Shown here piece by piece: positions 3,082 to 25,233 of a DNA stretch of 38,422 nt (its first letter is position 1; every line of letters starts with the position of its first letter). The notes beneath the pieces were generated by a model. The model had not been told where the DNA came from. It saw nothing but the letters and a program-made list of their open reading frames with translations, and did no database searches. Source of the DNA: Clostridiales bacterium (GTDB taxonomy: Bacteria > Bacillota > Clostridia > Lachnospirales > Lachnospiraceae); contig DUNS01000183.1 of NCBI GenBank assembly GCA_012839235.1, positions 1 to 38,422 on the forward strand, read 5' to 3'. The translations under genes and the position numbers were made by a program.

Positions 3082-3636
3082 ATGGATAATGATAACCAAA
3101 AAAATCTCTCGAAGAATGATACTGCCTATGATATTGAAAACTTGATGTGGGAATACGGTAACGATGTACTCCGTACAGCATATATGTATGTCAAGGATAT
3201 TCATACTGCAGAAGATATTTTTCAAGATGTATTTATTAAAGTAAACTCAAAGCTTTCTACATTTGAAGGAAACTCTAGCATCAAAACATGGATAATTCGG
3301 ATCACCATAAATACTGCTAAGGATTTTTTAAAGAGCGCATGGAATCGCAGGGTAGTTCCTATGATGGAATATAAAGAGGATGCTATTATTAGTGATTCGG
3401 ATTATGAGAGTGTAGAGAATGAGGACACTAATAAGATGATTATGGAGACAGTATTGTCTCTACCAGTTAAATATAAGGATGTTATACTAAGTGTTTACTA
3501 TAATGATATGACTATTGCTGAGACAGCAGAGTACTTAAACCTACCAGAGGGAACTATCAAAAGTCGTCTTTCTAGAGCAAGAAAGAAGTTGAAAGACGGA
3601 TTAGAAGGGAGGGTTTCGGATGAAAGATGGAAATAA
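3082..3636 (+). CDS. RNA polymerase sigma factor, ECF/sigma-70 family
   Basis: Region 2 (YMYVKDIHTAEDIFQDVFIKV) and region 4 (LPEGTIKSRLSRARKKLK) motifs. Confidence 0.93.
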   Translation: MDNDNQKNLSKNDTAYDIENLMWEYGNDVLRTAYMYVKDIHTAEDIFQDVFIKVNSKLSTFEGNSSIKTWIIRITINTAKDFLKSAWNRRVVPMMEYKEDAIISDSDYESVENEDTNKMIMETVLSLPVKYKDVILSVYYNDMTIAETAEYLNLPEGTIKSRLSRARKKLKDGLEGRVSDERWK

Positions 3637-4600
3637 TACTGAAGATATGAATTTGGATGATCTAAACATTAAGTCTCATCTGAATACTTCTCTTGAATTT
3701 TCTCGAATTAGTGTGTCTGAGGAGTTAATACAAAAGACACTGAAGGCTATTAATGAGCAGCCAACTACATTAGTGGAAAATGAAGAAAGAATAATAAAGG
3801 CTAAGAATATTTCTTGGAATTCATATGCTCGTAGGTTGACAGCAGCTGCAGCTGCTTTGATAGTCTTCATTGGAGGCTACAGCATAATAAAAAGCAGTGT
3901 AGGTATGAAATCCACAAAAAATGATAGCGGTATCTATATGGAGAGTAATTTATCAAAGGACGATTTCACATCAAAGGACGATTTCACATCCAAGGACGAT
4001 TTCACATCCAAGGATGATTTATCATCCAAGGATGATTTATCATCCTTTGATATGGCACAGCCTAAAACAGAGAGTCCAGTTTCTGAGAGTGATCAGGTAT
4101 TATTCTCTGCAACAGCAAGGGATATGGATGATGCTACCCTTGGAACAGCAAAAGAAGATTATACAATTGCTAGTGAAGATGAGCAGGATATGAAATCAGG
4201 TTCTTTATCAAGGGCGGGAAGTTATGATGGAGGACCCTCTGCTGTGGGATTTGGTCAGGTTTACGGAGGGACTGCGGATGTGATTGAAAGTATAGTGATT
4301 ACAGATGACGGCGCTGGTAAATCGGTAATCATCACAGAAGAGGCAGAATTATTAAAAGTTTATTCACTCCTAGATAGTTATTTATATAGAGCTGCCGATA
4401 GTGGTCTTTCTAGCAATATTTATTATTCAATAGACATTAAAGAATATCAATCTGATGGAATAAATACAATAAACATAGGTGATACAGTAACTATATCCTC
4501 AGAGACTGAGAACTCTGATAGTACTCAGGCGTATGAGATGATAAATCTTGAGGAGTTTAACCATGAATTAAAGGTACTCATCGAAAGCTACTCAAACTAA
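3620..4600 (+). CDS. Putative anti-sigma factor / single-pass membrane protein
   Basis: Overlaps the sigma gene end by 17 nt (translational coupling), one TM segment (LTAAAAALIVFIGGYSIIKSS), extracytoplasmic domain; role inferred from position. Confidence 0.7.
   Translation: MKDGNNTEDMNLDDLNIKSHLNTSLEFSRISVSEELIQKTLKAINEQPTTLVENEERIIKAKNISWNSYARRLTAAAAALIVFIGGYSIIKSSVGMKSTKNDSGIYMESNLSKDDFTSKDDFTSKDDFTSKDDLSSKDDLSSFDMAQPKTESPVSESDQVLFSATARDMDDATLGTAKEDYTIASEDEQDMKSGSLSRAGSYDGGPSAVGFGQVYGGTADVIESIVITDDGAGKSVIITEEAELLKVYSLLDSYLYRAADSGLSSNIYYSIDIKEYQSDGINTINIGDTVTISSETENSDSTQAYEMINLEEFNHELKVLIESYSN
3953..4042 (+). repeat. Tandem repeat, five 18-bp units encoding SKDD(F/L)(T/S)
   Basis: tcaaaggacgatttcaca x2, tccaaggacgatttcaca x1, tccaaggatgatttatca x2, in frame. 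Confidence 0.95.
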
Positions 4601-4613
4601 AAGAATATAATAT

Positions 4614-4826
4614 AAAAAAACCTTCATTGTTTGCTACAATAAGTGGAAACAAGTACGGTGAAATATATTTTGATAAGCGACTGTTTTAAGTCGTTGGTAC
4701 TTAGGTCATGTATTGTATGACCTTATGTACCATTACGTACTTAAATCAAGGGAGAGCGTGTCGCTTATGAAATATATTTCACCGTACTTGTATAATAATG
4801 CTTATGCAAACAATGAAGGCTTTTTT
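4614..4826 (+). ncRNA. Candidate structured element, copy 1 (nested inverted repeats with conserved apical core)
   Basis: Outer arm 4614-4634/4806-4826 (one mismatch), 20-bp perfect arm 4650-4669/4771-4790, 9-bp 4673-4681/4760-4768, 7-bp 4685-4691/4739-4745, GGTAC 4696-4700/GTACC 4727-4731, apical 4703-4709/4717-4723. Core shared with 19.1 kb and 22.2 kb. Confidence 0.75.
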
Positions 4827-5109
4827 AGTTAATTTCTGTTACCTCACCAGTATCTTCTAAGGTGGCATTAGCTGAGCCAGGACTTCCTAAGGGTTCTTCA
4901 TCTGTTAGGTTAATTGACACATATTCTCTAGATGTTTCATCAGCTTCATCATCTTCCATATCAAAATCTTCAAAATCTTCAAAGTCATCAAAATCATCAA
5001 AATCATCAGAGGCATCCCTCTTTATATAATTCTTATATAAGTAATAGGCACCAGCTGCCATAGTTACAAGTGAGAGGGTTCCAAACATGAATTTTCTAAT
5101 TTTCTTCAT
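4825..5109 (-). CDS. Small membrane protein with acidic DDF/EDF repeat
   Basis: ORF with N-terminal TM segment followed by DDFDDFDDFEDFEDFDMEDDEADE; aggatg SD-like upstream on minus strand. Confidence 0.7.
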   Translation of the reverse strand: MKKIRKFMFGTLSLVTMAAGAYYLYKNYIKRDASDDFDDFDDFEDFEDFDMEDDEADETSREYVSINLTDEEPLGSPGSANATLEDTGEVTEIN

Positions 5110-19010: not shown

Positions 19011-19230
19011 GATACAATTTGGCTAGAAAGGTATTGACAAGACCCGAGGAAAATGTTCCATGGGAATGAAATTCCCATTTTGTGGTGACGCTCTCGCTTA
19101 GTTCCATTACGTAGTGGTACATAAGGTTCTATAATACAGAACCTAAGTACCAACGAATGGAAATACTTACTATGGGAATCATTTTCCTTGGATCTTATTT
19201 TTTATACTTTGATTAGGCCAAATTGTATCA
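19010..19230 (-). ncRNA. Candidate structured element, copy 2 (minus strand)
   Basis: 14-bp outer arm 19010-19023/19217-19230; middle arm 19039-19055/19180-19196; core P3 19102-19108/19156-19162; P4 ggtac 19116-19120/gtacc 19147-19151; apical 19124-19130/19138-19144; acgctctcgct 19088-19098. Confidence 0.75.
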
Positions 19231-21870: not shown

Positions 21871-22124
21871 ATGATTGATATTTTAGGAAGAAAATGGTAT
21901 ACTAATTTCAATCTTTATCTGCGAAAATGAATTCATAGCTAGCAGATAACGAAAGGAGTTGTTGTTTTATGACTATTATTATTGAGGTGGCTTTTGTCTA
22001 AAACATTTTGATGCTTATACCCACAGCCTTGTTCGTAGAATTGATGAAAACACGTTGATTACAGAGCCAATATAGCATATGTATTCATAGGGCAATGACA
22101 TATTTATCACATGAAAGACTATAT

Positions 22125-22280
22125 AGACCAGGGTGTTATTATTAATCCATAAGGAGACCGTTGTCGCCATCGGTATTTAGGTTGTGGCAGATATTCCTAT
22201 CTGTCACAACCTTATGTACCGCTATGTGCGACATCCGAGCGAGAGAGTGTCTCTGTTGGATAATAATAACACCCTGGTCT
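22125..22280 (+). ncRNA. Candidate structured element, copy 3
   Basis: 20-bp arm 22125-22144/22261-22280; gagac 22154-22158/gtctc 22249-22253; P3 22162-22167/22228-22233; P4 22172-22176/22216-22220; apical 22179-22193/22198-22212; AGCGAGAGAGT 22238-22248. Confidence 0.75.
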
Positions 22281-22485
22281 TCTATACCTAAAGGTGATAA
22301 ATATGGGAGTTTTTTAAGTTACAAAATATACCCTGGGTATACATGTTTAGGTAAAAAATACAGCAAATGCCTCATAAGTGCCATAGTTCCCCTTTATTAT
22401 AAAGCATGTATTTAGAGAGCTGTCTATTAGTGTTTTATTTTATATAATTGTCAATGTTTACGCTGCCATTGAAAGGGGAATTTAC

Positions 22486-25233
22486 TTGAATAAGACTAAT
22501 TTTAATAAACTAATAATTATTTTGCTTATATTATGTATAATAATACCTCTAGGTCTTCCTATGAGGTCAATTAAAGTATCAGCTTCGCAGACTGGTACAG
22601 TGACTGCCAATTCATTAAACGTACGAACAAAGCCTTCAATATCCTCAAGTAAACTTAATCTCAATGGTACTGATGTTTATCTAGTTAAGGGAGAGACTGT
22701 AACTATTCTTGATGTTGATGAGGATTGGTATTATGTATCACTAACCTTTAATGGTAAGAAACTTAAGGGTTATATTAATAGTGATTTTGTAAAGACCAAT
22801 GCTGTGGCAAAGCCAACTGCCACACCTACCCCAAAACCAACAGCAACACCTAAGCCGACAGCAACACCTACATCTAAACCTGGTTCTAGTCAGGGGAATG
22901 GAAGTGATGTAAAGGCCATAGTCAATATTAAAGGGGAGGTTAAGGCTAGATCCTTAAATATTCGAAGTGGTCCAGGTACCTCTTATAGTAGGGTTGGTAG
23001 TCTTTCAATGGGTGATAAGGTTACAGTTATTAACGAAGCCCTAGAGAATAAGACCCGATGGTATGTAATTAAGTTCGAAGTAGGAAATGAGACCCTAATT
23101 GGATATGTTTCAAGCCTATACATTTCCCTAGACTATACCAAATCAATAAAAGCAGAGGTTGGGGTTAGTAAATTAAAAATTTCTTCCCAAGCCAATAGTA
23201 AGTCAGCTTTTGTTAAGAATGGGGCAGGTAATATCATTACCTTAAAAGAAGGAAAGAATGTATCTATTATTGATGAAATCATTGTTGGAAGCAATAAATG
23301 GTATGAATTAACATTTACACATAAGGAGGAAAAGCTTAGAGGATTTGCATTAGCTGGAGATATAGTATTTAGAACAACTGTAAAAGAACCAACGAAAGCT
23401 CCAACAGCAACACCTACTCCAAAGCCTACTAAGGCTCCAACTCCGACACCTGAACCGACTAAGAAACCATTGCCGACACCGGTGCCAACAGTTGTTCCCT
23501 TGCCAACTCTAACACCAACACCGAGTCCGATACCTACTATGCCACCTACCCCAACAGCTGAGGAGGATATTATTACTATATCTGATATTAAAATACATCG
23601 TAATATTGATGAGCCGAAAAGCGCCTACGTTGTTAATACAATTTATTTGAATGTTGTTGACAATATTATGCTAGGTAAAGATTTGCTTATGGACAATAAC
23701 GATGCAGTAGTTCTAACTAATGGGGAAAGGCTATCAGTTATTGATGATGTTTCGGTGGATGGAGTGGTTTACTACAAGATATCTTTTCTTTACAATGGTA
23801 AACCTTATAATGGTTATGTCCAAGCTGAGTATATATATATTGGAGATGTAAAACCTACATCTGACGGATCAGATTTGATACCTGGTGGTAATGTAACAAC
23901 ACCAGCACCTAGACCGACTACAAGTCCAATTTTTGGTGATCTTGATAATGTGGATTTTGAAGTCCAGATGGCTTTAGAGAATTTCCCAGAAAGCTATAAA
24001 AGTTCTTTAAGACAGCTTCATGCTAGTCATCCAAACTGGGTATTTAAAGCATATCATGTAGGTCTTGACTGGGATACTGTAATACGTGAGGAGAGTATTC
24101 CTGGTAAGAACACTATACCTAATACTAAAAGTGTAGAGTGGAAATCACTTGAGAGTGGCGCTTATGATTGGAAGAGTGATAAATTTATTGTATATGATGG
24201 TTCAACATGGGTAACTGCTTCAAAAGAAGCGATTGAATACTACATGGATCCAAGAAACTTCTTAGCAGAGGATACTATTTTTCAGTTTGAGCTACTAAGA
24301 TTCCAAGAAAAGTATCAGAATATAAAGGGAATTGAAAATGTATTAAAGGGAACGGCTATGTCCAATGCTTCTTATTCCTTTATTGATGATGACGGGAATG
24401 AAAAGACCTATACATATGGTGAGACCTTCTTAGATGCCGCAAGATACTCTGGGGTAAGTCCATATCATCTGGCATCTAGAGTTAAGCAAGAGGTGGTAAC
24501 AGGACCAAACACCTTAAGCAACAGTGTTTCAGGAACATATAAGGGGTTCGAAGGACTTTATAATTTTTACAATATTGGAGCTAATGATAGTGCAGGAGGC
24601 GGTGCTATTAAAAACGGTCTTAATTATGCAAAAAAAGGATCAAGTAATGCCGCCAATAATGCTCTTTACATGATACCTTGGACTAATCCATATAAGTCAA
24701 TAGTTGGTGGTTCGTGGTTCTTGGGAGATGGCTATATAAATCGAGGGCAGGATACAATATATCTACAGAAATTTAATGTTACACCTAGATCTACATATTT
24801 CCATCAATATATGACCAATGTGGAAGCCCCTTGGGCAGAAGGTAGAAAAGTATATTCTGCTTATCAAAATATGATTGATGTGCCAATAGTATTTTCCATA
24901 CCAGTTTATGAGAATATGCCTAATGAAAATGCACCTAAGCCTACAACTAAATTTAATCCTAATAATAGGCTTAAGAGTCTTAAGGTGTTAGACATGAATG
25001 GTGAAGGGCTAACGATTACTCCAACATTTAAGCAGACAGAATACAATTATTACTTAATTGTTCCTGCGGAGATGGAATATGTTGAAATAAAAGCAACAAC
25101 TGTAAGTAAGAAAGCAACTCTTGCTGGTGGTGGCTATATACCATTGCTTCAAGGTGATAATGTAATAAGCATACCTGTAATTGCTGAAAATGGAGATGTT
25201 GCAGAATACATTATTAATATTGTTAAAGAGTAG
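22486..25233 (+). CDS. Secreted multi-SH3 protein with endo-beta-N-acetylglucosaminidase-like domain and C-terminal cadherin-like beta-sandwich
   Basis: Repeated SH3_3-like units (ARSLNIRSGPGTSYSRVGSLSMGDKVTV), P/T-rich linkers, YMDPRNFLAEDTIFQFELL...ASRVKQEV...GLYNFYNIGA glucosaminidase-like motifs; TTG start. Confidence 0.85.
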   Translation: MNKTNFNKLIIILLILCIIIPLGLPMRSIKVSASQTGTVTANSLNVRTKPSISSSKLNLNGTDVYLVKGETVTILDVDEDWYYVSLTFNGKKLKGYINSDFVKTNAVAKPTATPTPKPTATPKPTATPTSKPGSSQGNGSDVKAIVNIKGEVKARSLNIRSGPGTSYSRVGSLSMGDKVTVINEALENKTRWYVIKFEVGNETLIGYVSSLYISLDYTKSIKAEVGVSKLKISSQANSKSAFVKNGAGNIITLKEGKNVSIIDEIIVGSNKWYELTFTHKEEKLRGFALAGDIVFRTTVKEPTKAPTATPTPKPTKAPTPTPEPTKKPLPTPVPTVVPLPTLTPTPSPIPTMPPTPTAEEDIITISDIKIHRNIDEPKSAYVVNTIYLNVVDNIMLGKDLLMDNNDAVVLTNGERLSVIDDVSVDGVVYYKISFLYNGKPYNGYVQAEYIYIGDVKPTSDGSDLIPGGNVTTPAPRPTTSPIFGDLDNVDFEVQMALENFPESYKSSLRQLHASHPNWVFKAYHVGLDWDTVIREESIPGKNTIPNTKSVEWKSLESGAYDWKSDKFIVYDGSTWVTASKEAIEYYMDPRNFLAEDTIFQFELLRFQEKYQNIKGIENVLKGTAMSNASYSFIDDDGNEKTYTYGETFLDAARYSGVSPYHLASRVKQEVVTGPNTLSNSVSGTYKGFEGLYNFYNIGANDSAGGGAIKNGLNYAKKGSSNAANNALYMIPWTNPYKSIVGGSWFLGDGYINRGQDTIYLQKFNVTPRSTYFHQYMTNVEAPWAEGRKVYSAYQNMIDVPIVFSIPVYENMPNENAPKPTTKFNPNNRLKSLKVLDMNGEGLTITPTFKQTEYNYYLIVPAEMEYVEIKATTVSKKATLAGGGYIPLLQGDNVISIPVIAENGDVAEYIINIVKE

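Follow-up and report, generated by a model that had tools for sequence, protein, structure and literature searches.

A MITE-like hairpin element of Lachnospiraceae that probably replaced an ancestral terminator between two convergent genes

The window, i.e., the whole stretch of DNA analysed, covers 38,422 nucleotides of a Clostridiales bacterium of the Lachnospiraceae (contig DUNS01000183.1 of assembly GCA_012839235.1). Near its left end, two convergent genes are separated by a gap of 224 nt (ORFs 3620–4600 on the plus strand and 4825–5109 on the minus strand), which is filled by the first of three copies of a hairpin element (copy 1). The features of the locus are the following:

3082–3636: ORF, taken for a sigma factor in the preliminary description
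3620–4600, plus strand: upstream convergent gene, taken for an anti-sigma gene in the preliminary description; overlaps the downstream end of ORF 3082–3636
4614–4621, minus strand: A7C tract; on the minus strand, U-tract of the putative terminator of the minus-strand gene (direct reading)
4622–4818, plus strand: copy 1, candidate mobile hairpin element of the gamma subtype, from terminal repeat to terminal repeat (repeats matched to loci L328, L335, L001 and L009); whole-element hairpin
4622–4634, plus strand: left terminal inverted repeat of copy 1, CTTCATTGTTTGC, also left half of the terminator-like stem
4649–4670, plus strand: left inner arm of copy 1, 22 bp, perfect
4678–4770, plus strand: conserved core of copy 1 (covariance model R1, 90 bits)
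4750–4757, plus strand: mini-hairpin of copy 1 with a GAGA loop; second stem pair G-G (broken)
4770–4791, plus strand: right inner arm of copy 1
4806–4818, plus strand: right terminal inverted repeat of copy 1, GCAAACAATGAAG
4819–4826, plus strand: GCT6 tract, U-tract of the putative terminator of the plus-strand anti-sigma gene; overlaps the stop codon of ORF 4825–5109 (direct reading)
4825–5109, minus strand: downstream convergent small gene, in conserved synteny

Direct reading bears out the coordinates given in the preliminary description, as well as its outer 14-bp stem with an A-run and a T-run around a loop of about 171 nt: the GC-containing stem CCTTCATTGTTTGC / GCAAACAATGAAGG pairs without a mismatch around 171 nt and lies between an A7 tract (4614–4620) and a T6 tract (4821–4826). 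The outer arms (4613–4634 and 4806–4827) are 22 nt long and 95% complementary, with one mismatch, and the inner arms (4649–4670 and 4770–4791) are 100% paired over 22 nt, so that the inner arm first described as perfect over 20 bp is indeed perfect, its length having been put slightly too short. The element was also rightly said to fill the convergent gap and to touch a stop codon with its T-run, since the T tract overlaps the stop codon (4825–4827) of the minus-strand ORF. Copy 1 folds with −98.2 kcal/mol on the plus strand (z −13.5) and −97.0 kcal/mol on the minus strand (z −18.1), energies that no shuffle reached on either strand. It was missed by an ordinary terminator scan because the loop limit of the scan is 8 nt. 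Regarding other repeats of the window, the anti-sigma gene contains five imperfect tandem repeats of 18 nt (3952–4041), which encode a (SKDD[FL][TS])n linker, possibly of variable length, and the 915-aa ORF 22486–25233 holds Pro/Thr-rich 12–18-nt tandem repeats (22813–22881), which are typical of linkers in secreted enzymes.

The window contains two more copies of the element:

19011–19229, minus strand: copy 2, beta subtype, terminal repeats GATACAATTTGGC / GCCAAATTGTATC; core at 19077–19169
22101–22304, plus strand: copy 3, delta subtype with a longer core loop, outer ends approximate; core at 22155–22259

All three share the motifs GGTAYTTAGGT-N-ACCTTATGTACC and AGCGAGAGCG-like, and three different subtypes (gamma, beta, delta) thus lie inside 18 kb. 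The exact core pattern occurs in 10 copies in the genome of the window (0 for the reversed pattern), while the covariance model finds at least 55 copies there, 63 in G006 and at least 126 in G010. According to this model, 18 of 34 congeneric genomes contain the element, and the other 16, one of which (G007) is assembled as a single contig and 99% complete, have 0 copies. The element, about 200 bp long and devoid of coding capacity, is spread through the Lachnospiraceae (Herbinix, Butyrivibrio, Anaerocolumna and others). Searches for it among viral contigs, phages and plasmids gave no hit, nor did it match Rfam at the gathering score (window and 18 loci), and a comparison with Rfam 15 at E-values up to 10 returned only chance microRNA and snoRNA models; moreover, a literature search by sequence and topic found no paper on its motif. 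Apparently, it represents an undescribed family of non-autonomous, MITE-like mobile DNA of the Lachnospiraceae. In G006, several copies (L305, L308, L311, L318, L319, L322) are preceded by an extra core sub-hairpin and several partial copies lie within 550 bp at L308, hence composite tandem arrays exist.

The subtypes of the element carry different terminal repeats. The beta repeat, GTTACWRTTCAGCC (also given as GTTACAGTTCAGCC), comes with 8-bp target duplications in a relative (e.g., AAGTTGCT, TTTACTTC, AGCCAAAA, TATTGAAT), and 196 beta ends GTTACAGTTCAGCC were counted in G004. The alpha repeat, TAGGYAATTGCGAAAC, comes with target duplications of 11–12 bp (e.g., TCCATTTATAA and CTATTACTAGAC). 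Finally, the gamma repeat is (T)CTTCRTTAATTTGCA, reading (T)CTTCATTGATTTGCA at L328, where a 12-bp duplication (CATAACCTATAC/CATAACCTTTAC) is found, and CTTCGTTAATTTGCA at L335. The outer stem of copy 1, CTTCATTGTTTGC, matches this gamma repeat and stands as far from the core as its counterparts in the sister copies do; next to copy 1 itself, no target duplication can be seen. One insertion site, occupied in three related genomes, is free of the element in a fourth (G114), with flanks 86% identical. In some beta elements, the core hairpin is deleted (L220, L221 and L231). As side observations, L220, L221, L222, L225 and L231 are 90–165-bp MITEs with beta ends, in which part or all of the core is missing, and many contigs break at beta ends.

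Its length below 600 bp, its lack of coding capacity, the dispersal of many copies, its terminal inverted repeats and, in sister copies, the target duplications are characters of a MITE, and we file the element as MITE-like on these sequence grounds. Its mobility presumably depends on a transposase provided in trans. The transposase search covered two families, PF01609 (IS4-type DDE), absent from the genome of the window and from G001, and PF01797 (Y1), absent from G004; both were rejected as drivers, being absent from some carrier genomes. REP elements mobilised by RAYT were also discarded, as G004 has no PF01797 despite its 196 terminal repeats. A search for an autonomous partner found no repeat pair 0.8–3 kb apart among the matches listed for G004, the richest genome.

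The conserved centre of the element forms a three-way junction whose pairs covary and which includes a 2-bp GNRA mini-hairpin. Across 25 diverse copies, both sides vary in 20 of its 29 pairs, and double-change cells number 150, versus 48.8 in shuffled data and at most 39 for slid structures, and RNAalifold, unaided, gives nearly the same structure; the invariance of the top core pairs is partly an artefact because the copies were picked by that motif. At face value, such a core might be that of a functional structured non-coding RNA (ribozyme-like or protein-binding), repeated by happenstance and selected as a transcript rather than as DNA. The GNRA loop, of six types (GAAA, GAGA, GCAA, GGGA, GGAA, GCGA), is kept on its covarying 2-bp stem in 125 of 142 copies, the second pair being broken in copy 1 (GGGAGAGC); covariation is strong and a G-U pair is conserved at the loop. 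Likewise, the covariance model scores copy 1 at 90 bits on the plus strand and 17 on the minus strand, and in the well-aligned core pairs G-T is somewhat more frequent than A-C (about 20 to 7, the cells not being independent), a hint that the plus strand might act as RNA or as a single strand. However, arm mismatches over 135 copies amount to 147 G-T and 145 A-C, and thus reveal no strand bias; orientation to neighbour genes is inconsistent, genomes hold either dozens of copies or none, and copies without a core have also spread. Moreover, d(GCGAAAGC)-type mini-hairpins are very stable as DNA too. We therefore consider it unlikely that the family is a non-coding RNA of this kind.

Outside the core, arm sequence is poorly conserved between copies and complementarity is kept. 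The arms of copy 1 match each other with a score of 31.5, versus at most 16 against any other copy in its genome and 11 for the 99th percentile of shuffles. Mirrored arm substitutions are in excess over shuffles in G006 (80 versus 20.9) and, in the genome of the window, in both the beta (77 versus 35.5) and gamma (37 versus 16) copies; the young alpha copies of G001 show no such excess (6 versus 6.9). When the orthologous copies in G100 and G108 are compared, five arm pairs differ, three of them by exact double changes, two of which are transversions that cannot pass through G-U, and in the orthologous copy of G099 the distal arm segment is wholly different from that of G100 and still perfectly paired. 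These three copies (L288–L290) occupy one insertion site, the core hairpin being deleted in G108; the segment distinguishing G099 from G100 is replaced on both arms (CCCCGAAAT opposite AAATCGGGG). An inversion of the arm segment between G099 and G100 was considered as well, and showed a resemblance of 9 nt only. In G006, copy-unique or target-derived arms were apparent from three copies and were rejected with 20 copies, in which the arms are homologous and have drifted in step.

Mirrored substitutions in three older subfamilies would also be compatible with selection on an RNA stem (e.g., for RNase III processing or 3'-end protection) keeping the arms complementary. Yet the arms contain about as many A-C as G-T mismatches, a G-U intermediate is impossible for the mirrored changes from A-T to C-G and from T-A to A-T, and mirroring is absent from the young alpha copies of G001, which leaves RNA-stem selection with a low probability. 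Hairpin-templated correction or palindrome selection at the DNA level, by which the arms may be kept matched, fits better than RNA selection, as an inferred step. Tentatively, and as a possibility rather than as our expectation, the essential part of the element might be the three-way junction with its GNRA mini-hairpin at the tip of a long palindrome, whose arms and terminal repeats would be free to change because each arm would be rewritten from the other by hairpin-templated correction; such rewriting would therefore yield one and the same core within different terminal repeats and with target duplications of different lengths.

As proposed in the preliminary description, copy 1 has the shape of a bidirectional intrinsic terminator, its 14-bp GC-containing stem being followed by T6 on the plus strand and T7 on the minus strand, and the gap contains no terminator candidate other than the element. 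The synteny of the anti-sigma gene and the convergent small gene is kept in 18 of 19 other loci examined (18 congeners). When the suggested check of orthologous loci lacking the element was run, a plain bidirectional terminator-like hairpin was found in 17 of 17 gaps (15 by scan and 2 by eye; 8% in shuffles), mostly flanked by an A-tract and a T-tract, and for this reason the site is best regarded as an ancestral bidirectional terminator. In G010, the orthologous gap holds a delta-like subtype beside a further hairpin. At this locus (L237) of the best-matching relative, the element of another subtype adjoins a terminator-like hairpin of its own, which suggests an independent insertion into the same gap.

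Among 133 copies inspected by eye, only copy 1 has a long perfect stem bounded by uninterrupted A7 and T6 runs, and the long A/T tracts at the stem ends are specific to it and not a family feature. Copies are found in 18 convergent, 13 divergent and 69 tandem gaps (counts that rest on simple ORF calling), a distribution that does not support a targeting of terminators by the family, and those with tandem neighbours are sense in 29 cases and antisense in 40. Because copies are spread over gap types with no orientation preference, terminator use appears to be a local event. The idea of a giant terminator thus holds for copy 1, by its shape and as a putative terminator, and fails as a role of the family, while the alternative of a stable 3'-UTR RNA finds no support as a family role in the sense and antisense counts.

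It had also been suggested that the element was inserted in the loop of an existing plain terminator, the stem of which would survive as the outer arms. All element-free orthologous gaps do hold a plain terminator-like hairpin, the A7/T6 tracts are foreign to the family, and at a second locus the gap of G114, where the element is missing, contains a plain hairpin AGGGCAAAaGTAT...ATACcTTTGCCCT, even if this hairpin fits a remnant or an unrelated hairpin as well. Nevertheless, insertion into a loop is not supported, because the outer stem CTTCATTGTTTGC matches the terminal repeat of the element itself (CTTCATTGATTTGCA and CTTCGTTAATTTGCA elsewhere in the genome), at the same core distance as in sister copies; what is left as host sequence does not exceed the A/T tracts plus one or two base pairs, and a target duplication between tract and repeat is absent. 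Altogether, we hold this scenario to be quite improbable. As for a chance or assembly artefact, it is refuted almost to certainty by the fold z-scores (−13 to −18) and by the recurrence of the element in independent genomes and collections.

Since the stem matches the gamma repeat and neither a host stem nor a duplication lies between stem and tracts, the element most likely displaced the old terminator. Judging from the sequences compared, copy 1 is thus probably a mobile hairpin element that replaced the ancestral terminator and was co-opted as a putative one. The MITE-like element of about 200 bp would have landed between the two convergent genes, in place of the ancestral bidirectional terminator, and its own terminal inverted repeats, together with the flanking A/T tracts, would form the new terminator stem for both genes, with which copy 1 would terminate transcription in vivo. 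More broadly, the element is a repeat family that abounds in Lachnospiraceae from guts and digesters, some species having dozens of copies and their congeners none, and copy 1 would clearly exemplify how a selfish hairpin takes the place of a host terminator between conserved genes. Its orthologous copies, as well as the contrast between the young alpha and the older beta, gamma and G006 subfamilies, provide a test ground for inverted repeats that remain matched and yet drift.

The closest precedents are the pneumococcal repeats SPRITE, BOX and RUP (PMC3049150), bacterial MITEs at large (PMC10969869) and the mobile/repeat sequence candidates (MRSC; PMC11109978). Like our element, SPRITE is a small dispersed Firmicutes repeat with a long stem and a T tract, found near convergent 3' ends and proposed to provide co-opted terminators (PMC3049150), but it has, by description, no structured three-way core, and the terminator shape is a family feature in SPRITE, whereas it is peculiar to copy 1 here. 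BOX and RUP of S. pneumoniae are similarly non-autonomous and modular, with terminal inverted repeats, target duplications, a strongly folded RNA and tens to over 100 copies distributed patchily among species (PMC3049150); compared by description, our element differs in that one core is retained by subtypes whose terminal repeats are not alike, and in that its arms change in step. MRSC motifs from bacterial non-coding RNA scans, judged selfish, are also structured, present in many copies per genome and inconsistent in gene orientation (PMC11109978), but MRSC-65-2 has a UYCCGG repeat (PMC11109978), and the element matches no Rfam 15 family. Finally, bacterial MITEs, such as Correia, ERIC and QMITE, are short, AT-rich and intergenic, with terminal repeats and target duplications, form stable stem-loop transcripts and are mobilised in trans (PMC10969869). 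In contrast to them, our element has no parental insertion sequence found and its middle is more conserved than its ends; it is new among MITE-like repeats because its centre, and not its ends, is conserved and because its arms evolve in step.
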